NCBI RefSeq assembly: GCF_001701045.1
Contig: NZ_CP016757.1
Location: 434,001-498,000, forward strand
Length of the DNA stretch: 64,000 bases
DNA from: Cloacibacillus porcorum
GTDB taxonomy: Bacteria; Synergistota; Synergistia; Synergistales; Synergistaceae
Direction of reading: 5' to 3'
A program made the position numbers and the translations under genes. A model generated the notes under the pieces. The model worked only from the letters and a program-made list of their open reading frames with translations, did no database searches and was not told where the DNA came from. Positions 20,070 through 34,052 of this stretch are shown piece by piece; within the stretch, counting starts at the first letter, position 1, and each line of letters opens with the position of its first letter.

Positions 20070-20102
20070 CGCCGCTCCGCAGTTATCCTAAGCGGGGCGG
20101 CG
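20070..20102 (+). promoter_or_regulatory. Hairpin in the gap before citD
   Basis: CGCCGCTCCGC (20070-20080) pairs with GCGGGGCGGCG (20092-20102), 11 bp with one wobble. A second GC-rich inverted repeat lies near 20170-20195. No T-run. The 217-base gap has no gene; it may uncouple citDEF expression from the upstream genes. Confidence 0.45.
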
Positions 20103-20271
20103 GCGCTAAATAATCCAGCGGCCTTCCAATCGGTAAGAATCAGAATCGAGAGGCGGGCCGCGTCAACTATCGCCGGACGGCGGAAACGCCGGCGTTGCGG
20201 CGGCAAGTGCGGCATTATATAAAAATAACCGACGATCAGTAAGAAAGACCAGACCAAGGGGGAAAAGAAAA

Positions 20272-20544
20272 ATGAAGACATCCCAGGCCGGCACACTCGA
20301 ATCAATGGACTGCCTCGTGACCCTCACCGAAGCGCCATCGGGAGCCGGAATCAAAATAGAGATAACGGGAGCCAGCGCGGCCCGCTTCAAAAGCGCGATG
20401 GAAAAGAAAATAACCGACACCCTGTGCGAGCTGGGGACGAAAGACATCGAAGTCAGAGTCCAGGACAACGGAGCCCTCGACATCGTCCTCGGCGCGAGAG
20501 TCGAAGCGGCCTACAAAAGACTGCAAAAGGAGAGTGTTAAATAA
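20272..20544 (+). CDS. citD: Citrate lyase acyl carrier protein (gamma subunit)
   Basis: 90 residues, the normal size. The N-terminal AGTLESMDCLVTL matches the AGTLES-D site where known CitD proteins carry the phosphoribosyl-dephospho-CoA group on serine, here Ser11. The following fold includes LGARVEAAYKRL. It carries the acetyl/citryl group between the alpha and beta subunits. It abuts citE directly. Codon choice shifts here toward GAA, AAA and ATA compared with the dehydrogenase gene. Confidence 0.9.
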   Translation: MKTSQAGTLESMDCLVTLTEAPSGAGIKIEITGASAARFKSAMEKKITDTLCELGTKDIEVRVQDNGALDIVLGARVEAAYKRLQKESVK

Positions 20545-21405
20545 ATGAGACGCACAATGCTCTACCTTCCGGGCAACAACCCCAACATGCTCACGAGAGG
20601 CTACCTATTCGGTTCCGACGGAATAATCCTCGACCTTGAAGACGCCGTGGCGATGGTAGAAAAAGACACGGCGCGCATACTCGTCTCCAAATACCTCCAA
20701 CAGGGAGAATTCGGAGACTGCTACGTCTCAGTCCGCATCAACGGCATAGACACCGAATACTGGAAAGACGACCTAGCGGCCATAGTCCCCAACAAACGCC
20801 TCGACGGAATCCGCGTCCCCAAAGTCGAAGACGAAAACACCGTAAAAATAATAGACGAAGAACTCTCCAGACTGGAAGAACAAAACGGCCTTCCGGTGGG
20901 CAAACTCAGCCTCCACTGCCTCCTTGAGACCGCGCACGGCATCTGGAACGCCTACGAAATAGCCAAAGCCTCCCCGCGCATAGAGGCCATAATCCCCGGA
21001 GGAGAAGACCTCCGCGCCGACCTCAAAACCAACCGTTCAGACGACAGCACAGAACTCGAATGGGCGAGAAGAATGCTCGTCTTCGCGGCGCGCGCCGCGG
21101 GAGTAGAACCCCTCGACACAGTATTCGCGCGCATAACCGACGACGAAGGACTGCGCAAAGAGACCGAATTCATAAAACAGCTCGGCTTCTCCGGCAAATC
21201 CATAATCCACCCCAACCAGATAAAAATAATCCACGACATATTCACCCCCACCGAACAAGAAATAGCCAAAGCGCAGAAAATAATCGCCGCGGCCAAAGAG
21301 GCGGCGGCCCGCGGACAGGGAGCGGTAACAGTAGACGGCAAAATGGTAGACATCCCCGTAGTCAAAAGGGCGGAATACACACTCGTCCGCGCCGGCCTGG
21401 CATAA
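20545..21405 (+). CDS. citE: Citrate lyase beta subunit (citryl-ACP lyase)
   Basis: 286 residues. It begins MRRTMLYLPGNNPNML and has the metal-site stretch GIILDLEDAVA, then INGIDTEYWKDDL and PGGEDLRADL; FSGKSIIHPNQI is the family signature near residue 220. It cleaves citryl-ACP to oxaloacetate and acetyl-ACP in the cytoplasm. It starts right after citD and is followed by citF. No citC, citX or citG is in the window, so activation of the carrier must be encoded elsewhere. Confidence 0.93.
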   Translation: MRRTMLYLPGNNPNMLTRGYLFGSDGIILDLEDAVAMVEKDTARILVSKYLQQGEFGDCYVSVRINGIDTEYWKDDLAAIVPNKRLDGIRVPKVEDENTVKIIDEELSRLEEQNGLPVGKLSLHCLLETAHGIWNAYEIAKASPRIEAIIPGGEDLRADLKTNRSDDSTELEWARRMLVFAARAAGVEPLDTVFARITDDEGLRKETEFIKQLGFSGKSIIHPNQIKIIHDIFTPTEQEIAKAQKIIAAAKEAAARGQGAVTVDGKMVDIPVVKRAEYTLVRAGLA

Positions 21406-21430
21406 ACTGGTCAACAAGAGGTGAAATGAC

Positions 21431-22978
21431 ATGACGAAAAACGCAGTAAAGCGGGAAATCCCCGACTACATAGAGGGCTACGGCCAAGTAAAACACTACC
21501 AGGGAGCCTTTGCGAGAAAACCCGAAGGCAGCATATCGGGAGCCAAACTCCGCTGCTACAACAGCGACATCACCGACAAAACAGTATCCTCAATCAAAGA
21601 GGCCATCAAAGCGGCGGGCCTCAAAGACGGCATGACAATCTCCTTCCACCACCACCTCAGAAACGGAGACTACGTAGTCAACATGGTCCTGGACGCCTGC
21701 GCCGAACTTGGCATCAAAGGACTCACCCTCTTCCCGACAGCCCTCTTCGGAGTCCACAAAAAAGTCATAGACCACATCAAAAGCGGAGTAGTGACAAAAA
21801 TCATGGGCTCAGTCAACGGCCCCATAGGCCAGCTCGTCTCCGAAGGCGGCATGCAGGTACCCGTAGTCCTCAGAAGCCACGGAGGGCGTCCCCGCGCCGT
21901 AATGGCGGGAGACGTCCACATAGACGTCGCCTTCATCGGAGCGCCCACGGCGGACAAATACGGCAACATCTGCGGCACCCTGGGCAAATCCGCCTGCGGC
22001 TCCCTGGGCTACGCCTACACCGACGCCGACTACGCCGACAAAGTCATAGCAATAACAGACAACCTCGTACAATACCCTGCGGCGCCCGTCTCCATCCCCC
22101 AGACCAAAGCCGACCTCGTAGTAGAAGTCCCCTCCATAGGCGACCCCGCAGGAATAGTCTCCGGAACCACCAAAGTCACCAGAGACCCGCTGAGACTCCT
22201 CATCTCCAGCTACGCCTCGCGCCTCATAGAAGCCAGCCCCTACTTCAAAGACGGAATCTCCTTCCAGACCGGAGCCGGAGGCATCCCGCTGGCAGTCACC
22301 GCCTTCATGAAAGAGGCCATGCTCAAAAAAGGAATCAAAGGCAGCTTCGGACTCGGAGGAATAACCGGCTACTTCGTCGAACTCCTCAAAGATGGGCTCG
22401 TGGACAAACTAATGGACGTCCAGTCATTCGACCTTGAAGCCGTCAAATCCATCGGAGAAAACCCCAACCACATAGAAATCTCCGCCGACTGGTACGCCAA
22501 CCCGTGGAACTGCGGAGCTGCGGTAAACATGCTGGATGTAGTGATCCTCGGAGCGACCGAAGTAGACACCGACTTCAACGCCAACGTCAACACCGAAGCC
22601 GACGGAGCGCTGCTCCACGGGACCGGAGGCCACCAGGACACCGCGGCGGGAGCCAAACTGACAATAATAGCGCAGCCGCTCCTGAGAGGCAGAATCCCCT
22701 GCGTGACGGACAAAGTCTACAACGTCACCACACCGGGAGAAGTAGTCGACGCCATAGTGACCGAATACGGAGTCACCCTCAACCCGAGAAGAAAAGACCT
22801 GTTAGACGCCGTATCTGGTCTCAAGGGACTTCCCATAATCAGCATGGAAGAACTGGCGGCGAGGGCGAAGAAAATGTCCGGTCCGACCGACCCCGTGGCG
22901 ACCACAGACCGGATAATAGGAGTAGTCGAGTGGAGAGACGGCACCGTTATCGACGTCGTCAGACAGCTTAAAAAGTAA
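21431..22978 (+). CDS. citF: Citrate lyase alpha subunit (citrate:acetyl-ACP transferase)
   Basis: 515 residues, the expected size. Landmarks are ISFHHHLRNGDYVVN, the glycine-rich FGLGGITGYFVELL and VTLNPRRKDL. The segment GDVHIDVAFIGAPTADKYGN fits the CoA-transferase-like fold. It exchanges citrate for acetate on the carrier protein. With the aconitase pairs and dehydrogenase it could join 2-oxoglutarate, isocitrate, citrate and acetate plus oxaloacetate in one route; direction is inferred. A terminator follows at 23004. Confidence 0.94.
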   Translation: MTKNAVKREIPDYIEGYGQVKHYQGAFARKPEGSISGAKLRCYNSDITDKTVSSIKEAIKAAGLKDGMTISFHHHLRNGDYVVNMVLDACAELGIKGLTLFPTALFGVHKKVIDHIKSGVVTKIMGSVNGPIGQLVSEGGMQVPVVLRSHGGRPRAVMAGDVHIDVAFIGAPTADKYGNICGTLGKSACGSLGYAYTDADYADKVIAITDNLVQYPAAPVSIPQTKADLVVEVPSIGDPAGIVSGTTKVTRDPLRLLISSYASRLIEASPYFKDGISFQTGAGGIPLAVTAFMKEAMLKKGIKGSFGLGGITGYFVELLKDGLVDKLMDVQSFDLEAVKSIGENPNHIEISADWYANPWNCGAAVNMLDVVILGATEVDTDFNANVNTEADGALLHGTGGHQDTAAGAKLTIIAQPLLRGRIPCVTDKVYNVTTPGEVVDAIVTEYGVTLNPRRKDLLDAVSGLKGLPIISMEELAARAKKMSGPTDPVATTDRIIGVVEWRDGTVIDVVRQLKK

Positions 22979-23003
22979 GAATACTATAAATTAAATATCG
23001 CAG

Positions 23004-23033
23004 TGCGCCTCCGGCTTGGGGGCGCATGTTTTG
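23004..23033 (+). terminator. Intrinsic terminator of the citDEF operon
   Basis: TGCGCCTCC (23004-23012) pairs with GGGGGCGCA (23018-23026) around the loop GGCTT, followed by TGTTTTG. It ends the cit transcript just before the small-RNA promoter, so that RNA starts independently. Confidence 0.75.
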
Positions 23034-23059
23034 TATAGGGTTGGAATGTCTGATATAAT
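23031..23059 (+). promoter_or_regulatory. Promoter of the CRISPR-repeat-like small RNA
   Basis: A perfect extended -10, TG-A-TATAAT (23051-23059, TATAAT at 23054-23059), with TTGTAT at 23031-23036 and a 17-base spacer. The expected transcription start, 6-7 bases after the -10, is 23065-23067, exactly the first base of the diverged CRISPR repeat. Confidence 0.7.
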
Positions 23060-23065
23060 TTACAA

Positions 23066-23155
23066 GTCGTGCCTTTTAGGCACGTTAGTTGAAACTTTGT
23101 GTTATATGTATTGACGACGAAAACATCTCTTTTTTATAAAAGGGATGTTTTTTTG
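23066..23155 (+). ncRNA. Putative crRNA-like regulatory RNA (CreR/CreA-like) upstream of cas3
   Basis: Three parts are visible. First is a lone 30-base repeat relative (23066-23095) ending TTAGTTGAAAC, 10 of 11 bases like the array repeat's 3' handle. Its hairpin arms CGTGCCT/AGGCACG differ from the array arms CACGCCC/GGGCGTG by three paired changes that all keep pairing. Second is a 25-base spacer-like segment (23096-23120). Third is an intrinsic terminator (arms 23121-23133 and 23138-23150, then a T-run). The spacer-like 5' end matches a PAM-flanked site at 23162-23186. Cas5c could process it and Cascade use it to repress a nearby promoter. RNA expression is inferred. Confidence 0.65.
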
Positions 23156-23161
23156 TATTTT

Positions 23162-23186
23162 ATATCTTTACTTATAACACAAAGAA
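23162..23186 (-). promoter_or_regulatory. Predicted Cascade target site of the crRNA-like RNA
   Basis: Read on the minus strand, a TTC PAM (complement of 23184-23186) is followed by TTTGTGTTATA, identical to the first 11 bases of the spacer-like segment at 23096. Positions 13-15 and 18-19 also match, 16 of 19 in all, then matching stops. Partial, seed-only pairing is what regulatory Cascade guides use to bind without cutting. The site overlaps the predicted promoter at 23167-23195. Confidence 0.55.
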
Positions 23187-23195
23187 GGTTAAAAT
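23167..23195 (+). promoter_or_regulatory. Predicted promoter facing the small ORF and cas operon
   Basis: TTTACT (23167-23172), 17 bases and TAAAAT (23190-23195). The -35 is moderate, the -10 five of six. The predicted Cascade site covers the -35 and most of the spacer. Other possible cas promoters are TATAAT at 23414-23419 and TTGTAG-17-TAATAT at 23475-23503, so assignment is open. Confidence 0.4.
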
Positions 23196-23230
23196 TATTT
23201 GTGTTGAACATAAGAATGATGGAGATGATC

Positions 23231-23395
23231 ATGGTGCATTTATTTTCAAATAAAAAAATATCACTTGTCATAAGATTTTGTGGAATGAAATTGAAATTGA
23301 ACTATGTTTCTTCTAATTCTCCCCTTTGGCTTGACTCTACTATGTGGGTAAGAGCTAAATATAAAAATATGGTCTTTGATAAAGCAAATGAATGA
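23231..23395 (+). CDS. Possible small basic protein before cas3
   Basis: 54 codons from an ATG with GGAG six bases upstream; earlier in-frame starts at 23201 (GTG) and 23216 (ATG) are possible. The peptide is rich in Lys and aromatic residues (MVHLFSNKKISLVIRFCGMK at its start) and AT-rich in codon use, unlike the chromosome. I recognise no family. It lies just downstream of the predicted Cascade-controlled promoter, which would fit a repressed toxin (CreT-like) gene, but it could equally be non-coding leader. The remaining bases to 23548 hold only candidate promoters. Confidence 0.3.
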   Translation: MVHLFSNKKISLVIRFCGMKLKLNYVSSNSPLWLDSTMWVRAKYKNMVFDKANE

Positions 23396-23548
23396 ATTAT
23401 TTGAAAATTACGTTATAATATAAAAATAGATCATAGCATTTTATAAAGTTCTTTATATGTGTATTGCTACTTAATTGTAGTTTTGTTGCATGGTTCATAA
23501 TATATACACAGATCGGATGAATAAATATTCGGAAGATGGGGTGTAATA

Positions 23549-26125
23549 ATGGATCAAACAGAATATATAGCGCATCTCAGGGATAAGGAACCCCGGTCTC
23601 AGAGTGTAGAAAAACATCTTTTAGAAACCGCCGTTCTGGCTAAGCGGTATGCCTCCGTCGCTGGATTGGGGGGAATTGGTGAATTATTGGGGCTTCTCCA
23701 TGATCTTGGCAAATATTCCTCTGATTTTCAACAATATATAAAAAGTTTGTCTGGATTTTATGATCAGGATCATGATGACGACAGCTGTTCTCAGAGAACA
23801 GAGAAAAATAAGCAAACGTTATCTATGAAGGGGAAAATAGATCATTCCACAGCGGGAGCCCAGTTTATATGGCAGCAGCTGGGTTGTAATAAGAAAGACT
23901 GGATAAAACTCACCGCGGCGGAGATGCTGGCGGTTATTCTAGCCGGACATCATGGCGGGTTGATGGATATTTCATCGGAGGGGGGCGACCTTTTTCTCAA
24001 GAGGATGAAAAAAGAAGATGGAAAAACTCATCTGACTGAGGTCGCAACAAAAATATCTCCTGAAGTTCGTGATCGGGTCGACAAGCGGCTGGCATCCTGT
24101 GTGACGATTTCAAAACTTAAAAAATTAATATTAAATATTAAGGTGAAGGAAGATGCAATCACAGAAGAATCCCTTAAAGATCTGGAGTTGGCGGCGGACG
24201 ATGGCTCAGCAAAGCTAAAATGCAATGAAATAAAAACGGCTGGGGCGGCCAGATTGTGGTTCGGTTTGGGCTGTCTGACAAAGTTTCTGTTCAGTGCACT
24301 GGTAGACGCAGACAGATGCGGCACGATTGATTTTTGTGTTGACGGCGCCGCCGAGGCCAGACAAAATTCGAATTATACAGGCTGGAGCATCCTTTCGGAA
24401 CGGCTGGAACGGTATCTTTCCCATTTTTCAGCGGATACTTCTGTAAACAGGATACGCAGGGATATTTCAGATTCATGCCGTGATGCGGCGCAGCGGGGCC
24501 GCGGCATATTTACCTTGACCGTTCCCACGGGCGGCGGAAAGACTTTGGCCAGCATGAGGTTTGCCCTCGAACTGGCGAAACGTTCCGTAGACGACGCACA
24601 TCCCATCGAGCGGATTATTTATGTTCTTCCATACACGACGATAATTGATCAAAATGCCGCCAAGACACGTGAAATCCTTGAGACGGAGGCGGATCGTGGT
24701 AAAGTTGTGTTGGAGTGTCACTCGAATCTGCTTGAGGAGAACGAAACTTGGGAGGGAAAGCTCCTATCAGAAAATTGGGATGCGCCGGTTGTCTTTACCA
24801 CCAACGTTCAGTTCCTGGAGGCTCTTTTTTCCGGTGGGACAAGGAGTATCAGGCGAATGCACCAGATGGCCGGCTCTATCATTATTTTTGACGAGATACA
24901 GGCCTTGCCGATCAAGATGGTACATCTTTTCTGCGGTGCTTTGAATTTTCTGCTTGAGCAGTGTGGCGCTACGGTCCTTCTCTGTACTGCCACACAGCCG
25001 CTGCTCAATGGAGTATCAAAAGATTACGGCTCACTGCGCTACGGTGCGGAGGATGAAATTATTCCTGACGCCAGAATGTTGTTTGATTCTCTTAAAAGAG
25101 TGGAGATCAAGGACTGCACGAAGATAGGCGGCTATTCAATCGGAGAACTGGGTGATATGGCAATTGAAAAGCAGCAGGAATTTATCTCAATTCTAGCTAT
25201 TGTAAATACTACTGCCGTCGCCAGGAAGCTTTATGTCGATATAAGGTCTAAGCTTGAAGCGGAGTCCGCAGTGAGCGTTGTCCACCTGAGTGCGTTGATG
25301 TGCCCAGATCACCGCAAGGTGGTTTTGGATGGTATTAACGAGCGGTTGAAGGCTGTAAAACCCATAATCTGTGTCTCTACACAGGTGATGGAGGCGGGGA
25401 TAGATGTCGATTTTGGCAGTGGGATACGCTCTCTTGCAGGCTTCGATTCGATCGTGCAGGCTGCCGGCCGCTGTAACCGGGAGGGACAAAAGGCGACGGC
25501 GCCCATGTTTATCGTCAATCCAGCCGATGAGAACCTTGATAGGCTTATTGATATTAAAGCAGGGCGTCATGCTGCGGAGAGGGTTTTGAACGAGCTTTCA
25601 TTAAATGCAGAAGGCGGGAAAGAAGATATTTTATCACTGGAAAATATTACGCGTTATTTTCAATACTATTTTTATGAGCGCCGCCAGGAAATGAGATATA
25701 ATGTCGAGACCGATCACGGAGAAGATACTCTGTGGAATCTACTCTCGCTGAACGTCAAAGTTCCTACGCCTCCCGGACGAAAAATCAGGCAGGCATTTGC
25801 CACTGCGGGAAACCTTTTTAATGTCATTGACGCGCCTACAAAGGGCGTTATCGTTCAATACCGCGAAGGTGAGGAGCTTGTAAATCAGCTGGCCCTTGAG
25901 GATGACCCTTCCATGGTAAAAAAATTGCTGCACAAAGCGCAGCGGTTTTCAGTAAACGTTTATCCATATCAATTTGATGCCCTCTACGAATGCCGGGGGA
26001 TATATAAACAGTCTCTCTGCGGTGCAGGCTGCACTGAGGTCTGGATTCTGGCGCGGGAGTTTTACGACGATGAATTTGGTCTGAGTATGACATCAATTGG
26101 GAAATTAAAATTGGAGGTGACATAG
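23549..26125 (+). CDS. cas3: Type I-C CRISPR helicase-nuclease Cas3
   Basis: 858 residues. The N-terminal HD nuclease has LLHDLGKYSSDF (HD at 51-52), DHSTAGAQF and AGHHGGL. The superfamily-2 helicase follows with VPTGGGKTLASMRFAL (Walker A, near 330), DEIQAL, CTATQPLL and the late AAGRCNREG motif VI. It degrades DNA after Cascade recognises a target. GC content drops from the cit cluster to this operon, suggesting acquisition by transfer. The stop overlaps the cas5 start by one base. Confidence 0.95.
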   Translation: MDQTEYIAHLRDKEPRSQSVEKHLLETAVLAKRYASVAGLGGIGELLGLLHDLGKYSSDFQQYIKSLSGFYDQDHDDDSCSQRTEKNKQTLSMKGKIDHSTAGAQFIWQQLGCNKKDWIKLTAAEMLAVILAGHHGGLMDISSEGGDLFLKRMKKEDGKTHLTEVATKISPEVRDRVDKRLASCVTISKLKKLILNIKVKEDAITEESLKDLELAADDGSAKLKCNEIKTAGAARLWFGLGCLTKFLFSALVDADRCGTIDFCVDGAAEARQNSNYTGWSILSERLERYLSHFSADTSVNRIRRDISDSCRDAAQRGRGIFTLTVPTGGGKTLASMRFALELAKRSVDDAHPIERIIYVLPYTTIIDQNAAKTREILETEADRGKVVLECHSNLLEENETWEGKLLSENWDAPVVFTTNVQFLEALFSGGTRSIRRMHQMAGSIIIFDEIQALPIKMVHLFCGALNFLLEQCGATVLLCTATQPLLNGVSKDYGSLRYGAEDEIIPDARMLFDSLKRVEIKDCTKIGGYSIGELGDMAIEKQQEFISILAIVNTTAVARKLYVDIRSKLEAESAVSVVHLSALMCPDHRKVVLDGINERLKAVKPIICVSTQVMEAGIDVDFGSGIRSLAGFDSIVQAAGRCNREGQKATAPMFIVNPADENLDRLIDIKAGRHAAERVLNELSLNAEGGKEDILSLENITRYFQYYFYERRQEMRYNVETDHGEDTLWNLLSLNVKVPTPPGRKIRQAFATAGNLFNVIDAPTKGVIVQYREGEELVNQLALEDDPSMVKKLLHKAQRFSVNVYPYQFDALYECRGIYKQSLCGAGCTEVWILAREFYDDEFGLSMTSIGKLKLEVT

Positions 26126-26838
26126 TGGACAACAGAATTTCTTTTAAAGTCAGGGGGAAATTCGCACTCTTTACGGATCCTGTAACAAAAATTGGCGGCG
26201 AGAAGTGCACCTATCAGATCCCCACCTACGAGGCGCTGCGTGGTATAGCCCGTTCAATTTACTGGAAGCCGACCTTTATCTGGCGGGTAGACAGGGTACG
26301 GGTCATTAATCAGATACGCACGCAGACAAAGGGAGTCAAACCGCTGAACTATAACGGCGGCAACAGTCTTGCCTTCTATAACTATTTGGCAGATGTCGAG
26401 TATCATGTGCAGGCTCACTTTGAGTGGAATCCTTTGGCTTCAGAGTTTATCTCGGATCGTAATGACAATAAGCATTACATCATGTTAAAGAGATATCTCG
26501 AACGTGGCGGAACGCGTGATATTTTCCTTGGCGTGCGCGAATGTCAGGGATATGTGGAGCCGATTGAATGGAGCGATAGGCCGGAAGGATTCTACAAAGA
26601 TGTCGACGAGATATCATTCGGACTGATGTTCCACAGCTTCCTTTATCCGGAAGAATCCGGAAAAGATGAGCTTTACAGCCGCTTTTGGTATCCCAAAATG
26701 CGCCGTGGCGAAATCGATTTCACCGGATATGAAGGAAATTTGATCTCTAGGTTTGTGCGTCCGATGAAGGGTACCAAGTTTGTAAGTAAAAACGGCGGCA
26801 CCCCTAAAGATTTTGACACGGCCAATGCCGAGGTGTGA
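26125..26838 (+). CDS. cas5c: Type I-C Cas5 (Cas5c/Cas5d), crRNA endonuclease
   Basis: 237 residues starting at GTG 26125, with a GGAGGTG site inside the end of cas3. The RAMP fold start FKVRGKFALFTDPVTKIGG and IPTYEALRGIARSIYWKP are typical. In type I-C systems, which lack Cas6, Cas5 cuts the repeat RNA; the NKHYIMLKR segment carries the Lys-His pair expected at the active site, with a tyrosine in the SIYWKP stretch. It would leave an 11-base 5' handle. Confidence 0.94.
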   Translation: MDNRISFKVRGKFALFTDPVTKIGGEKCTYQIPTYEALRGIARSIYWKPTFIWRVDRVRVINQIRTQTKGVKPLNYNGGNSLAFYNYLADVEYHVQAHFEWNPLASEFISDRNDNKHYIMLKRYLERGGTRDIFLGVRECQGYVEPIEWSDRPEGFYKDVDEISFGLMFHSFLYPEESGKDELYSRFWYPKMRRGEIDFTGYEGNLISRFVRPMKGTKFVSKNGGTPKDFDTANAEV

Positions 26839-26840
26839 TT

Positions 26841-28781
26841 ATGAGTTGGATGCAGAGGCTTGAAGAGACGTACGAAAACGCGTATAAGAGAAGGACTTAT
26901 TTCACTACATTACCTGTTCCGCCGGCGCATGTGGAACAGCAGGCGCATATTGAAGTTGTGTTGGACGGCGGGGGAAATTTTTTGTCCTCCGAAGTCGTAA
27001 ATAAAGAGGCTACCCTCATTCCGGCGACAGAGGCTTCCGCAGGCAGAACCAGCGGCGGCGAGCCTCACCCGCTATGCGACAAGATACAATATGTGGCGGG
27101 AGACTATAAGGACCACGGCGGAATTTCCAATGCCTATTTCGATGATTTTAAGAGCGGAAGTGAAATCAAAGCCGGATATTTATCACTGCTCACTGCCTGG
27201 AATGATTTTTACGATCATCCAATGCTGAAGGCCGTGCTTAAATACACTGGCAAAAGATCTTTGATTTCCGACCTTGCGGCGTCAAACGTGCTATTTCTTG
27301 ACGAGAGCGGCAATCTTCTCACCGAGTGGGATGGCAAAGATTCTCCGCCAATATTTAAAGTTCTGACAAAAAAGAAGGACAAGTCAGGAAAAAGTGTCTT
27401 TGACCAGGGAGGGGCGCTTGTGCGATGGCGCGTCCAAATTCCAGGCTGGTTGGAGGATCGCGTATGGGAATGTGACGAACTGACGGATTCTTGGATTCGC
27501 TTTAACGGCTCGCGCCAAAATGCGAATTCTCTCTGCTATATTACTGGAGAAGAGAGACCGTACGCGGTAAACCATCCGGCTCGTCTCCGTTATTCGGGTG
27601 ACAAGGCGAAACTCATATCTGCGAATGACCTTAGCGGCTATACGTTCAGAGGGCGCTTCTTAACACCGGAAGAGGCCTGCACTATCGGATACGATGTTAC
27701 GCAGAAGGCCCACTCTGCCCTTCGGTGGCTCATAGATGACCGGGGTTTTAAAAACGATAGTCAGGTTATTGTAGCATGGGCGATAAATACCGCAAAGATA
27801 CCGCCTTTGTGCGTCTCAAGCGACGAGCTTTTTGCAGATGCTCCGGAAGACGATGAATTGAGCGAGGTCTCTTTTAACAATATAGAGGACCTTGGCGCGT
27901 CATATGCGAAAAAACTTAATAAAAAACTTGCCGGATATAGGGCGGAGCTGAAGGATCGGGACGACATCGTCGTCATGTCGCTGGACTCCGCAACTCCGGG
28001 AAGGATGGCGATCACCTATTATCAAGAGATAAAAGGCTCGGATTTCCTTGCGCGGGTGGAAAATTATCATAAAAAATATGCGTGGCGCCAGTATTTTGGT
28101 AAAGAGAGAGTGTTTGTGGGCGCCCCGTCTATTTTTGATATCGCTCAGATGGCCTTTGCCGGAAAAACGGGGCCTTCATTGCTGAAATCTACCATCTCAA
28201 GATTACTTCCGGTTATTTCAGAGGGAATGGCATTCCCATGGGATCTGCTTCTTGCGGTCTGCCATAGGGCAGCACAGCCGCAGTCAATGGAATGGTGGGA
28301 ATTTGAAAAAATACTTGGCATTGCCTGCGGGCTTTATTCCGGATGCCACTCAGAGAGGGGATACAAAATGGCACTTGAAGAAGAGAGAAGGACACGCGAT
28401 TATCTTTACGGAAGGCTTCTTGCCGTGGCGGACAAGCTGGAGGGACGGGCTCTTTATATTGCAGGAGAGAGCCGAGATACCTCCGCAATGAAACTGATGA
28501 CGAGATTCGCCGAGAAGCCGTTCGAAACATGGCGGCAGATAGAGATAAATTTGGTTCCATACCGCAGCCGCCTTCAGGCTAAAGCGGAAAAAGAGCTAAA
28601 CTTCTTCAACATACTGATGGATAAAATATACATGTCATTTATACCAGGGGAATTTGAAGACAATGCCCCACTTTCCGCGGAATTTCTCTTAGGTTTTCAC
28701 TGTCAGCGCTATGAATTATGGCAGAAACAGAAAAGCAACGAAACGCAAAGCGATACAGCCGATAATTCGATAATTAAATAA
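26841..28781 (+). CDS. cas8c: Type I-C Cascade large subunit Cas8c
   Basis: 646 residues from ATG 26841, six bases after GAGGTG; a GTG at 26835 overlapping the cas5 stop is an alternative. Cas8c/Csd1 landmarks are DFKSGSEIKAGYLSLLTAWNDF, the AHSALRWLI segment and the late YKMALEEERRTRDYLYGRLL. It recognises the PAM and, through internal translation, often also supplies the small subunit. Position between cas5c and cas7c is the standard type I-C order. Confidence 0.94.
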   Translation: MSWMQRLEETYENAYKRRTYFTTLPVPPAHVEQQAHIEVVLDGGGNFLSSEVVNKEATLIPATEASAGRTSGGEPHPLCDKIQYVAGDYKDHGGISNAYFDDFKSGSEIKAGYLSLLTAWNDFYDHPMLKAVLKYTGKRSLISDLAASNVLFLDESGNLLTEWDGKDSPPIFKVLTKKKDKSGKSVFDQGGALVRWRVQIPGWLEDRVWECDELTDSWIRFNGSRQNANSLCYITGEERPYAVNHPARLRYSGDKAKLISANDLSGYTFRGRFLTPEEACTIGYDVTQKAHSALRWLIDDRGFKNDSQVIVAWAINTAKIPPLCVSSDELFADAPEDDELSEVSFNNIEDLGASYAKKLNKKLAGYRAELKDRDDIVVMSLDSATPGRMAITYYQEIKGSDFLARVENYHKKYAWRQYFGKERVFVGAPSIFDIAQMAFAGKTGPSLLKSTISRLLPVISEGMAFPWDLLLAVCHRAAQPQSMEWWEFEKILGIACGLYSGCHSERGYKMALEEERRTRDYLYGRLLAVADKLEGRALYIAGESRDTSAMKLMTRFAEKPFETWRQIEINLVPYRSRLQAKAEKELNFFNILMDKIYMSFIPGEFEDNAPLSAEFLLGFHCQRYELWQKQKSNETQSDTADNSIIK

Positions 28782-28800: not shown

Positions 28801-29622
28801 ATGTCACTGTCGAAAAAGATTGATTTTGCGGTAATATTTTCAGTAAGAAACGCGAACCCTAACGGAGACCCCTTAAACAGCAACAGACCAAGAATCAGTT
28901 ATGAGGGAATAGGAGAAGTCTCTGATGTCTGCCTGAAACGTAAGATTCGGGACAGACTGCTTGAAGATGGCCTTGAGATATTTGTTCAATCGGAAGATCG
29001 TAAGGTTGATGAAGCAACATCATTGAAGGCAAGAGCCGACGCTGTTTTAAATAAAAAAATGACTAAGAGCGAAACAGAGAGAGCTGTGTGCGAAAAATGG
29101 TTTGACGTTCGTGCCTTTGGTCAAGTCTTTGCATATAAGGCCTCTAAGAACGAAGATCCGGGAGTCTCCATTGGCATTCGTGGTCCGGTAACCGTACAGA
29201 CAGCGTTCTCTACCGCTCCAATCTCTATTACCAGTACTCAGATCACAAAAAGCGTCAACGGAGAAGACACAAAAGATGGTAAAAAAGCCTCTGATACAAT
29301 GGGTATGAAGCATCGCGTAGATTCCGGCATATATGTGTTCTTCGGAAGTATGAATCCGCAACTGGCGGAGAAGACAGGATTTAGTGATGCCGATGCGGCA
29401 AAAATAAAAGAGGTTCTTCCCAGACTTTTTGAAAACGACGCCTCTTCCGCGCGGCCAGATGGCACCATGAAGGTGCAAAATGTCTTTTGGTGGGAACATA
29501 ATTGCAAAAGTGGACAATACTCCTCCGCGAAAGTTCACGATTCTCTTAAAGTTGAACCTGACGGCACGTATGAGATTTACGAGCTGGACGGGATCACGCC
29601 GGAGATAATTCCTGGATTTTAG
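28801..29622 (+). CDS. cas7c: Type I-C Cascade backbone subunit Cas7c
   Basis: 273 residues, with a GGAGG site. The N-terminus IDFAVIFSVRNANPNGDPLN is the Csd2/Cas7 signature, followed by the SNRPRISYEG loop, and the central SIGIRGPVTVQTAF and MGMKHRVDSGIYVFFG are conserved. Several copies form the filament that holds the crRNA. It lies 20 bases after cas8c. Confidence 0.95.
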   Translation: MSLSKKIDFAVIFSVRNANPNGDPLNSNRPRISYEGIGEVSDVCLKRKIRDRLLEDGLEIFVQSEDRKVDEATSLKARADAVLNKKMTKSETERAVCEKWFDVRAFGQVFAYKASKNEDPGVSIGIRGPVTVQTAFSTAPISITSTQITKSVNGEDTKDGKKASDTMGMKHRVDSGIYVFFGSMNPQLAEKTGFSDADAAKIKEVLPRLFENDASSARPDGTMKVQNVFWWEHNCKSGQYSSAKVHDSLKVEPDGTYEIYELDGITPEIIPGF

Positions 29623-29634
29623 GCTGAGCTGTTA

Positions 29635-30306
29635 ATGTATGCCGATGACGATCTCCTTCTGATATCAGGTCTGCAGCATCTGGCTTTCTGCGAAAGGCAG
29701 TGGATGCTTATTCATGTCGAGCAGCTATGGGCCGAGAATCTTCTTACCATCGAGGGAGATCATCTGCACACGAATGTACACCAGATCGGGAGTGAAAGCC
29801 GTGGCGAGGTAAAACTTGCCACGGGCCTCCAGCTCCGTTCGTTTGAGCTGGGGCTTTACGGCGTAGCGGACATGGTTGAATTCCATCGCGACGATAGAAA
29901 TGGCGTCGTCATTCCAAGCTTCAGAGATAAGGGAAAAAGATGGCGGCCGTATCCCGTAGAATACAAACGCGGGCGCAGACGTTGGGATATCGCGGACGAA
30001 GTGCAGATGTGCGCACAGGCTATTTGCCTTGAGGAGATGTTGTGCTGCTCTATTACAGAGGGCGCTATCTTTTATGGTGAACCAAAGAGAAGAACAAAAA
30101 TAGCACTTACTGAGGAGCTGCGCAGTGAAGTTGCCGCAAAATGCAACAGGGCGCGCCTTTTGGCCTCCGGCGCGGAGGCACCAGCCTATACGCCTGGAAA
30201 ACAATGTAAAAATTGTTCTATGCGGGAGCATTGCATGCCAGAAGAAACTCATTTGGCGGACAGATCGCGGAAATATTTAGACAATATATTTAAGCAGAAA
30301 TGTTGA
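29635..30306 (+). CDS. cas4: CRISPR adaptation nuclease Cas4
   Basis: 223 residues. Iron-sulfur ligands are C19 (HLAFCERQW) and the C-terminal cluster CKNCSMREHC. The RecB-like nuclease core shows VEYKRGRRRWDIADEVQMCA, with the Glu-x-Lys pair. It trims prespacers and selects those with the correct PAM for Cas1-Cas2. The ribosome binding site is weak, and translation may depend on cas7c, 12 bases upstream. Confidence 0.93.
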   Translation: MYADDDLLLISGLQHLAFCERQWMLIHVEQLWAENLLTIEGDHLHTNVHQIGSESRGEVKLATGLQLRSFELGLYGVADMVEFHRDDRNGVVIPSFRDKGKRWRPYPVEYKRGRRRWDIADEVQMCAQAICLEEMLCCSITEGAIFYGEPKRRTKIALTEELRSEVAAKCNRARLLASGAEAPAYTPGKQCKNCSMREHCMPEETHLADRSRKYLDNIFKQKC

Positions 30307-30322
30307 CCTTGGGGGAAAGACA

Positions 30323-31357
30323 ATGAAAAGATTGCTGAACAGCCTCTTTGTAATGACCCAGGGAGCGTGGCTTTCCCAAAAAGGAGAAAACATAATAGTT
30401 CACCTGAATAAAGAGGAAAGCCGTGCCTTCCCGATTCACATATTTGACTCTGTGCTGTGTTTCGGGCAGGTAAGCGTGACACCGCCGCTTATGGGGGGGT
30501 GTGCTGAGCATGGAGTGTCAATCTCTTTCTTCACTGAATATGGGAAATTTTTGGCTTCGGTTCATGGTCCTGTCAGTGGAAATGTCCTCCTACGCAAAGA
30601 GCAATATCGTATATCAGACTCACCGCAGCGCAGCGCCGGCATCGTACGGAGCCTTCTTGCGGCAAAAATAAGCAACAGCCGTGTTGTCCTCCAACGTTTC
30701 TTACGGGATCATCCGCAGGATGGTACTATAGAAAAATTTTTTAGGGAGAATATCGGCCAGCTTGAAGGGTATCTTGCGCAGCTTCGTGACAAAGACAACA
30801 TAGAAGAGATGCGTGGGATAGAGGGGATATCGGCAAGGCTCTACTTTGATCTGTTTGATAAACTCATAATACAGCAGAAGGACGACTTTAAATTCACAGA
30901 AAGAAACAGACGCCCGCCAAGGGACAGGGTGAATGCGATGCTCTCTTTCGTCTACACACTCCTTACAAACGACGTAAAATCAGCGCTGCATGGCGTTGGG
31001 CTGGATCCCGCCGTAGGTTTTTTGCACAAAGACAGGCCCGGGCGCGCAAGCCTGGCTCTTGATATGATGGAAGAGTTCAGGAGTTGGTGGGCTGACAGAT
31101 TTGTACTCTCCCTCATAAACCTTAAGCAGGTCAAGGGCTCAGGGTTCACATTTTCAGAAAGCGGAGCCGTTATCATGACAGAGGAGGCGCGCAAAACGGT
31201 GATATCCGAGTGGCAGTCACGTAAACAGGACGAAGTGCTTCATCCATACACTGGTGAAAAAATTCTGATAGGCCAGCTGCCTCATCTTCAGGCTATGCTG
31301 CTTGCACGGCACATACGCGGCGATATGCAGGAATACCCGCCATATATCTGGAAGTAG
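30323..31357 (+). CDS. cas1: CRISPR integrase Cas1
   Basis: 344 residues, the size of type I-C Cas1. The catalytic histidine lies in GFLHKDRPGRASLALD and the acidic partner in the following DMMEEFR stretch (near residues 234-250). The first glutamate ligand sits in the preceding helical domain. It forms the spacer-integration complex with Cas2. A GGGGGAAAG site precedes the ATG. Confidence 0.94.
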   Translation: MKRLLNSLFVMTQGAWLSQKGENIIVHLNKEESRAFPIHIFDSVLCFGQVSVTPPLMGGCAEHGVSISFFTEYGKFLASVHGPVSGNVLLRKEQYRISDSPQRSAGIVRSLLAAKISNSRVVLQRFLRDHPQDGTIEKFFRENIGQLEGYLAQLRDKDNIEEMRGIEGISARLYFDLFDKLIIQQKDDFKFTERNRRPPRDRVNAMLSFVYTLLTNDVKSALHGVGLDPAVGFLHKDRPGRASLALDMMEEFRSWWADRFVLSLINLKQVKGSGFTFSESGAVIMTEEARKTVISEWQSRKQDEVLHPYTGEKILIGQLPHLQAMLLARHIRGDMQEYPPYIWK

Positions 31358-31366
31358 GGATGAGAG

Positions 31367-31657
31367 ATGCTTGTTGTGGTAAGCTATGACGTCAATGTCA
31401 GCAGTGAAGGCGGTGCGAAGCGTCTACGGAAAATCGCCAAACTCTGCGAAAACCATGGGCAGAGAGTCCAGTTCTCTGTCTTTGAATGTTTGGTTGACCC
31501 GGTACAATGGTCCGAGTTAAAATTTCAGTTAGAGAAGAGCATTGATAATCAGAAAGATAGCCTGAGATACTACTTTTTGGGAGCAAACTGGCAAAGAAGA
31601 GTAGAACATGTCGGAGCGAAAGAACCATATGATCCTCAAGGATTACTTTTGCTGTAA
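31367..31657 (+). CDS. cas2: CRISPR adaptation protein Cas2
   Basis: 96 residues, starting LVVVSYDVNV with the conserved Asp8 and later GQRVQFSVFEC. It is the structural dimer of the Cas1-Cas2 integrase. It follows cas1 after nine bases and is the last protein gene before the array leader. Confidence 0.95.
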   Translation: MLVVVSYDVNVSSEGGAKRLRKIAKLCENHGQRVQFSVFECLVDPVQWSELKFQLEKSIDNQKDSLRYYFLGANWQRRVEHVGAKEPYDPQGLLLL

Positions 31658-31841: not shown

Positions 31842-34052
31842 GTCACGCCCTCACGGGCGTGCTAGTTGAAACGATTGACACGCTGGAACGTGTAGCTTTT
31901 AAGGTGTCACGCCCTCACGGGCGTGCTAGTTGAAACCAAATAGACACGATTATGTCCCGCACAGCCCCGGTCACGCCCTCACGGGCGTGCTAGTTGAAAC
32001 GATTAAGACACCCACATGATTTTGTTCGCCCTCCGTCACGCCCTCACGGGCGTGCTAGTTGAAACGTGCCTTGGTTGGCAACGGCACCAATATCACGCGT
32101 CACGCCCTCACGGGCGTGCTAGTTGAAACACCTACTGTAAGGTCAAGAAACATCAGCCCGAATGTCACGCCCTCACGGGCGTGCTAGTTGAAACTTCGCC
32201 TCCTTTACTCCTTTACTCCCTTAACCGTCACGCCCTCACGGGCGTGCTAGTTGAAACCAACGATGGACGTGGAAAACGTCGTCGATGCGGGTCACGCCCT
32301 CACGGGCGTGCTAGTTGAAACTACTTCCATAATTGCCCTAAAGACCAGGTAAAGTCACGCCCTCACGGGCGTGCTAGTTGAAACTTTTTTAGATAAGTCG
32401 ATAGAAAATGTTGCTCTGGTCACGCCCTCACGGGCGTGCTAGTTGAAACAAATGTAATCAATATTTGGTGTTCTTTTTTGTTGTCACGCCCTCACGGGCG
32501 TGCTAGTTGAAACCGTGTCCCTTCTGCGGGCACATGCAGTATCTCGTCACGCCCTCACGGGCGTGCTAGTTGAAACCTTCATTCGTCGTTTTTGCCTGCG
32601 ACTGTCCGCGTCACGCCCTCACGGGCGTGCTAGTTGAAACTGGTGATAGAGGACCAAATATCTTTAATGCTCTGTCACGCCCTCACGGGCGTGCTAGTTG
32701 AAACCTTTTTAGTTACTATATCAGGTAATGATGCTAACGTCACGCCCTCACGGGCGTGCTAGTTGAAACCTTGGTTAAAGGGCTGTAGCCCAGAACCGTT
32801 GAGTCACGCCCTCACGGGCGTGCTAGTTGAAACATGTATTCGGAGCTCTTTGCCGCAGCAATCGCAGGTCACGCCCTCACGGGCGTGCTAGTTGAAACTG
32901 TCTTTACAAAAGAGATATTGAAATCGTATTTCGTCACGCCCTCACGGGCGTGCTAGTTGAAACCGCATATTCATGATACTGACCGATCATGAGCGGTCAC
33001 GCCCTCACGGGCGTGCTAGTTGAAACACTTGGAGCTTCGCTAGATTTTTCATTGCTTGCGTCACGCCCTCACGGGCGTGCTAGTTGAAACAATTACCATA
33101 GATGACAGCGGCACTATCGGATTGTCACGCCCTCACGGGCGTGCTAGTTGAAACATAGATTGCCAAAGGTCGGCAATCGTATCGTTGGTCACGCCCTCAC
33201 GGGCGTGCTAGTTGAAACCGATCAGTCCGTTTACATCGATAAAGACTTTTGGTCACGCCCTCACGGGCGTGCTAGTTGAAACTTTTCCGCCTTAAATTTA
33301 TAGCCCATGTACTTAGTCACGCCCTCACGGGCGTGCTAGTTGAAACTGGAGTACGTGGTCGGCTGTCATATCGGCATAGCGTCACGCCCTCACGGGCGTG
33401 CTAGTTGAAACATATCCGCCTTATATAGAATTGTTCGCACGGGAAGTCACGCCCTCACGGGCGTGCTAGTTGAAACGTTCCGCAAGAACGTCAATTTCAC
33501 GACATGAGGGTCACGCCCTCACGGGCGTGCTAGTTGAAACCTGCTGCGCCTGGGCCTGTGCGCGCTGCTTCCGGTCACGCCCTCACGGGCGTGCTAGTTG
33601 AAACAGCACCCCGGCACGCTTACATTAGAGGCGCATAGTCACGCCCTCACGGGCGTGCTAGTTGAAACCTCCTGGGACGATTTATGCGGAGCAGCGCGGC
33701 GGTCACGCCCTCACGGGCGTGCTAGTTGAAACCGCAGATTATGTCTCCGTATATCCCATAGGGGGCGTCACGCCCTCACGGGCGTGCTAGTTGAAACGCT
33801 ATCAGCTGGACGGGGACAGGAGGGGCACAAGTCACGCCCTCACGGGCGTGCTAGTTGAAACATGTGACGGGGATCTCGCTCGACAAAGAAATATGTCACG
33901 CCCTCACGGGCGTGCTAGTTGAAACTCCATGCCACAGTCGACCTCAATCAGCGCGTCAGTCACGCCCTCACGGGCGTGCTAGTTGAAACCATACGTTGCC
34001 GGGCGCAAACCATTGCCCGACAGTCACGCCCTCGCGTGCGTGCAGTTGAAAC
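31842..34052 (+). CRISPR. Type I-C CRISPR array, 35 repeats and 34 spacers
   Basis: Thirty-four identical 31-base repeats start GTCACGCCCTCACG and end GCTAGTTGAAAC, forming a 7-bp hairpin with loop TCAC. Period is 63-65 bases, so spacers are 32-34 bases. I counted starts at 31842, 31906, 31970, 32035 and so on to 33959. The 35th, at 34023-34052, is degenerate: several changes in the hairpin and one lost base. This marks the leader-distal end and, with cas2 and the leader on the left, sets transcription to the plus strand. I noticed no duplicate spacer and no spacer matching this window. Confidence 0.98.

Follow-up and report, generated by a model that had tools for sequence, protein, structure and literature searches.

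The intergenic gap between citF and the type I-C cas operon of Cloacibacillus porcorum contains a compact small RNA gene that probably encodes a CreR-type, cas-regulating crRNA, so that Cascade carrying its guide would bind a nearby promoter without cutting and repress the operon. The gene lies within a stretch of 64,000 nucleotides (hereafter the window, whose numbering is used throughout), and comparable guides recur in other type I-C loci. Type I-C is among the commonest CRISPR subtypes and, to our knowledge, the control of its cas gene expression is poorly known.

The cas operon and its surroundings

The operon comprises a complete type I-C set, all on the forward strand: cas3 (23549-26125), cas5c (26125-26838), which adjoins cas3 without a gap and codes for the presumed processing nuclease, cas8c (26835-28781), cas7 (csd2, 28801-29622) and the genes cas4, cas1 and cas2 (29635-31657). 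There is no further open reading frame (ORF) besides the cas genes in the stretch from cas3 to cas2, and an array of 34 repeats follows (31842-33989, also forward; repeat GTCACGCCCTCACGGGCGTGCTAGTTGAAAC). The assignment to type I-C is based on Cas5c, Cas8c/Csd1, Cas7/Csd2 and Cas3 (NCBIfam TIGR01876, TIGR01863, TIGR02589 and cas3), with no Cas6.

The citE-citF region on the other side of the gap (20101-22977) has a second copy, 99.6% identical, 2.65 Mb away (G000:C1; 9205-11700 of locus L096). A CRISPR element is found directly downstream of citF in both copies, the lone repeat described below in one and an orphan array of seven repeats in the other (G000:C1:3112433-3112826, about 8430-8850 of L096, minus strand; repeat GTCGTGCCCTTCGCGGGCACGGTAGTTGAAAC). 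The handle of the orphan repeat is that of the main array, and its stem is nearer to that of the lone repeat. No cas genes were recognised among the ORFs listed around the orphan array, which may share the I-C Cas proteins of the main operon.

The guide RNA gene

The gap, from the end of citF (22978) to the start of cas3 (23549), has a G+C content of 28%. The small RNA gene (23066-23156) is self-contained, with an extended -10 promoter, a lone degenerate repeat, a guide of 24-25 nt and a terminator. Its predicted promoter (23031-23059, forward strand) has a -35 box TTGTAT (23031-23036), a 17-nt spacing and an extended -10 TGaTATAAT, with the TG at 23051-23052 and the hexamer at 23054-23059. 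This combination (TTGTAT-17-TATAAT) is the top PWM scorer of the gap (region 22951-23560), in which consensus promoter matches, given its AT-richness, are by themselves not above chance (three found against 4.1 expected). From the promoter spacing, transcription is predicted to start at G23066, exactly where the lone repeat begins.

The repeat itself (psiR, 23066-23095, forward strand; GTCGTGCCTTTTAGGCACGTTAGTTGAAAC) is located outside the array, 453 bp upstream of cas3, and is thus an ectopic, degenerate copy next to the cas operon, with a handle distance of 0. Its handle (TTAGTTGAAAC, 23085-23095) is common to the array (CTAGTTGAAAC), and its 3' end is identical to that of the array repeats 9 kb downstream (TAGTTGAAAC). 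The 7-bp stem (23068-23074/23078-23084) reads CGTGCCT/AGGCACG, as against CACGCCC/GGGCGTG in the array, and still pairs over its whole length; the sequence has therefore been altered while the pairing was retained. The spacer-like guide (23096-23120, forward strand), recognisable by its sequence and by its pairing with the target, occupies the 24-25 nt ahead of the stem of an intrinsic terminator (23119-23156, forward strand; 15-bp stem at 23119-23152, then a T-run). Terminators are above chance in the gap before cas3 (two found against 0.3 expected), and the predicted 91-nt guide RNA folds far better than its shuffles (z -4.8). A search of Rfam gave no match that reached or approached the gathering score.

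The target site and the promoter that contains it

The guide has a TTC-flanked partner 80 bp downstream. This target protospacer is on the minus strand (23159-23183, read from 23183 to 23159; TTC + TTTGTGTTATAaGTAaaGA) and adjoins the PAM at 23184-23186 (minus strand). Guide and target are identical at positions 1-11, 13-15 and 18-19, that is, at 16 of the first 19. The original prediction had placed the promoter, the lone repeat, the guide and the terminator where we find them, and had described the exact match of the first 11 guide bases to 23173-23183 next to TTC; all of this holds. Its identification of TTC as a type I-C PAM agrees with work on the I-C Cascade of Neisseria lactamica, which accepts TTC and TTT and, used for CRISPRi in the absence of Cas3, causes repression from sites that overlap a -10 (PMC10865793).

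The match is difficult to reconcile with chance. An exact TTC-flanked match as long as the 11 nt seen in the local 420 bp was obtained in two of 20,000 Markov shuffles. Across the 3.585-Mb genome, TTY+TTTGTNTTATA occurs twice, and the exact form with the PAM and 11 bases is found solely at the target. The second PAM-seed site (G000:C1:1751012), which differs at position 6 and offers no useful pairing past position 11, was set aside.

These data bear on two explanations that dispense with a regulatory role for the match. It is very improbable that the element is a relic of a CRISPR array, i.e., a repeat in decay that has stayed next to the operon and matches AT-rich DNA in its vicinity by coincidence. 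The orphan array described above, of similar stem and adjoining the near-identical citE-citF copy, does indicate that repeats persist near this gene pair. However, a relic would hardly have its own promoter and terminator fitting a guide RNA exactly, nor retain its stem pairing despite the change of sequence; the probability of the match by chance is about 1e-4, and other I-C loci show this arrangement as well. That the lone repeat acts as a decoy, sequestering Cas proteins in the manner of RNA anti-CRISPRs from phages, with an incidental match to the target, appears even more far-fetched. A solitary repeat with its own promoter would suit such a role, as described for phage solitary repeats (PMC10651486), but this one is positioned immediately ahead of the cas operon of the host, with no mobile-element genes seen adjoining, and carries a PAM-matched guide that would be superfluous for a decoy.

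The target falls between the -35 and -10 boxes of a second predicted promoter, TTTACT-17-TAAAAT (23167-23195, forward strand; -35 at 23167, -10 at 23190), which is the second-best of the gap. A distance of 350 bp, which includes a 54-codon ORF, separates it from cas3. No intrinsic terminator was found between the target and cas3 in this 350-nt leader, and the promoter is predicted to drive the leader and cas3 onward. A weaker promoter, also ahead of cas3, is predicted at 23392/23414 and could drive cas3 past the repression.

Similar guides in other type I-C loci

Cas5c was searched for in 188 genomes of the phylum of the window (36 of them with a match), and the search was widened to the class that includes a Methylomicrobium genome (370 genomes) and to the phylum that includes a Paludibacter genome (396 genomes). 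In about 100 type I-C loci, we have examined the DNA upstream of cas3 and the gap between cas3 and cas5. Repeat handles with at most one change were accepted, and positions 1-5 and 7-11 of the guide had to be found again in the vicinity, preceded by TTC or TTT (the published rule for CreA); one seed mismatch was tolerated when positions 13-17 matched well.

Fourteen further loci have a degenerate repeat with a seed- and PAM-matched guide, bringing the total with the window to 15, eight of them in its own phylum. The guide is upstream of cas3 in the window and in L049, L050, L063, L069, L070 and L128 (the last from the Methylomicrobium class); L049 and L050 are near-identical loci of one genus. 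In another eight (L074, L076, L109, L114, L122, L126, L127 and L132) it is located in the cas3-cas5 gap, ahead of the Cascade genes. A search of related genomes for repeat, seed and target had been suggested together with the original CreR/CreA-like reading, and this reading is now supported by the 15 loci and by the distribution of mismatches described below.

The scan was compared with several controls. Of 41 hairpin repeats found ahead of cas3 in 70 I-C loci, five are matched by a seed and PAM partner, against none of 8,200 candidate-shuffles, and the wider scan gave seven loci at handle distance 0-1, against zero in ten shuffles of every region. Among 838 tiles of real DNA outside the region upstream of cas3, matches appeared in eight loci, all of them in the cas3-cas5 gap and none elsewhere; the first real-DNA negative control thus contained the cas3-cas5 gap guides, which are part of the finding. 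Most of the scanned I-C loci have no detectable guide, and in those of Bacteroidota no convincing one was found.

In the loci examined in detail, the target is situated at or near a predicted promoter ahead of cas3 or cas5. L070 has a divergent guide gene with an extended -10 (TGTTACAAT) and a terminator, and its target is just past a TTGACA-16-TATAAT promoter ahead of cas3, with mismatches only at 6, 12 and 18 in the first 19 positions. The order seen in the window (guide gene, targeted promoter, cas3) is repeated in L069, with a TTC PAM and mismatches at 9, 12 and 18, and in L122, there inside the cas3-cas5 gap. L063 contains a mini-CRISPR with two repeats and a target just downstream of the TTGACA promoter of cas3, while in L049/L050 the target is found immediately before the repeat, in the cas3 leader. 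The repeat stems of these last two loci differ in sequence and retain their pairing.

The nearest relative, G021, allows a comparison over a short distance: in a DNA search of 60 relatives, the sole match was to the final 70 bp ahead of cas3 in G021, and the G021 contig breaks 93 bp upstream of this gene. Other handle-like sites of G021 were considered and are not the piece beyond the break. The same-genus genome G001 gave a sub-threshold Cas5 match only and has no I-C operon. Matches in L002, L003 and L005 correspond to AT-rich or terminator similarity and not to relatives, and candidates in L133, L147, L158, L054 and L156, together with the L049/L050 hairpin, were dismissed because they are duplications or inverted repeats or are probably fortuitous.

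Clustering of mismatches at positions 6 and 12

Positions 6 and 12 of type I guides remain unpaired, and CreA still functions when they are mutated (PMC8501985). Since a scan that ignores these positions favours mismatches there, the analysis was repeated in a position-blind manner, requiring at least 13 matches out of 17. Positions 6 and 12 accounted for 18 of the 47 mismatches, against 5.5 expected (P about 3e-6). The set includes some chance matches, which would weaken this signal; shuffling all regions 20 times yielded 12 of them, about 0.6 per pass. Mismatches at 6 and 12 would provide a signature, readable from the sequence, of pairing within Cascade by natural guides with a regulatory role.

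Outside the count of 15, the cas3-cas5 gap of L123 contains a possible guide (ACGAAAGTTGTACTTCG) with a TTC-flanked partner and mismatches at 3, 13 and 16.

Comparison with known regulatory guides

CreR RNAs have been reported for types I-B, I-E and V-A (review PMC13131331). We found no published I-C CreR in the open literature, the scope of the original CreR study being taken from reviews. Like CreR, the element of the window would be a crRNA-like RNA whose source is a mini-CRISPR next to the cas genes, with a partial match to a putative cas promoter and a proposed role in autorepression; the PAM-flanked partial (seed) complementarity characteristic of CreR is found here with TTC and positions 1-11 and 13-15. 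It differs in belonging to type I-C, without Cas6 and with presumed processing by Cas5c, in a degenerate repeat that keeps its hairpin, in the 350 bp from its target to the first cas gene and in being predicted from sequence. We regard it as probably the logic of CreR in a subtype without Cas6.

The resemblance extends to CreA, the guide of the CreTA modules of Haloarcula hispanica and Halobacterium hubeiense (type I-B) and of Acinetobacter (type I-F), which also combines a degenerate repeat and a guide with a TTC PAM and the seed positions 1-5 and 7-11; in H. hispanica it has the same one-repeat design ending in a terminator. In contrast to CreTA, the window has no recognisable toxin RNA, and the targets in comparable I-C loci face cas3 or cas5. 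The scaRNA of Francisella, acting with Cas9 (PMC9458426), is likewise a degenerate-repeat guide that represses through a short match instead of cutting, but it is a type II element whose target is a lipoprotein operon and not the cas genes.

A model for repression of the operon

Repression of the cas operon by Cascade is proposed because the element has a guide of 24-25 nt, a TTC PAM and a seed within a promoter. In type I-B, 10-11 matching seed bases, or guides of at most 24 nt, repress without cutting (PMC8501985, PMC10989794). An RNA of roughly 90 nt would be made, extending from the start of the lone repeat to the terminator, and Cas5c (presumably) would cut below the repeat stem, leaving an 11-nt handle, the guide and the terminator hairpin. 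Pairing of the seed (1-11, 13-15) would then bring the loaded Cascade to its site between the -35 and -10 of 23167-23195. Such a short and imperfect match should not permit cutting by Cas3, and binding would therefore only block RNA polymerase at a promoter that is predicted to read through the leader into cas3-cas5-cas8-cas7-cas4-cas1-cas2. The outcome would be a negative feedback in which Cascade, when free, represses the operon that encodes it, whereas occupation of Cascade by crRNAs or anti-CRISPRs relieves the repression.

If this is correct, RNA-guided self-repression reaches a Cas6-less subtype in at least two bacterial groups, and anti-CRISPRs against the I-C Cascade are predicted to raise cas expression. 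Guides of this kind could then be found by their repeat, seed and PAM, with no other information than the sequence.

The 54-codon ORF between the target and cas3

The original prediction had left it undecided whether the cas genes or a toxin would be repressed. The targeted promoter is located just upstream of the 54-codon ORF (23231-23395, forward strand), which, coding or not, is part of the leader, has 28% G+C and is preceded by a good ribosome site (GGAG, 6 nt before the ATG at 23231). Its open frame is mildly longer than chance (34 of 2,000 shuffles, p about 0.017), and the layout of the guide is that of CreA. These features would suit a toxin-antitoxin module of the CreTA or CrePA type, in which the guide represses a toxic ORF, or an RNA starting at 23202, and cells that lose Cascade die or stall. 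We consider this unlikely. Searches of the 188 phylum genomes, of NCBIfam, of PHROGs and of plasmids found no relatives of the ORF, and a Pfam search gave a sub-threshold match only, with no family above the cut-off. In CrePA, where the guide also represses a nearby promoter, possibly that of a small ORF, the protein toxin CreP typically has a KilA-N domain; the ORF of the window has none. CreT toxic RNAs have a start codon followed by two rare codons, identical to each other in the known CreTs (other designs are possible), but here the ATG at 23231 is followed by GTG CAT TTA TTT TCA, with no repeated rare codon. Moreover, no terminator was found ahead of cas3, and in L069, L070 and L063, which have no intervening ORF, at most about 100 bp separate the target from cas3.

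Along with the position of the targets at or near cas3 and cas5 promoters, these observations favour repression of cas expression over control of a toxin, and no known type of toxin was recognised at the locus. An intermediate possibility, which we consider quite unlikely, is that the promoter under the guide serves a new 54-codon protein together with cas3 onward, coupling I-C expression to a Cascade-repressed product that is possibly a toxin.

Further features of the comparison loci

Some of the loci have additional peculiarities. The guides of L127 and L132 are related to each other, and L132 has two repeats, the second of them near-canonical. In L128 (about -155 to -116 from cas3), the stem of the degenerate repeat (CCTAC/GTAGG) appears to enclose an inserted hairpin (ATTTTCAA...TTGAAAT). 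L063 retains part of a former CRISPR array, inversely oriented, upstream of its mini-CRISPR (-850 to -680 from cas3). Finally, L049/L050 have, right after the guide (-97 to -48 from cas3), a near-perfect 14-bp inverted repeat without a T-run (GTCGATTACCTCTT), which may cap the RNA or serve as an attenuator in the cas3 leader.
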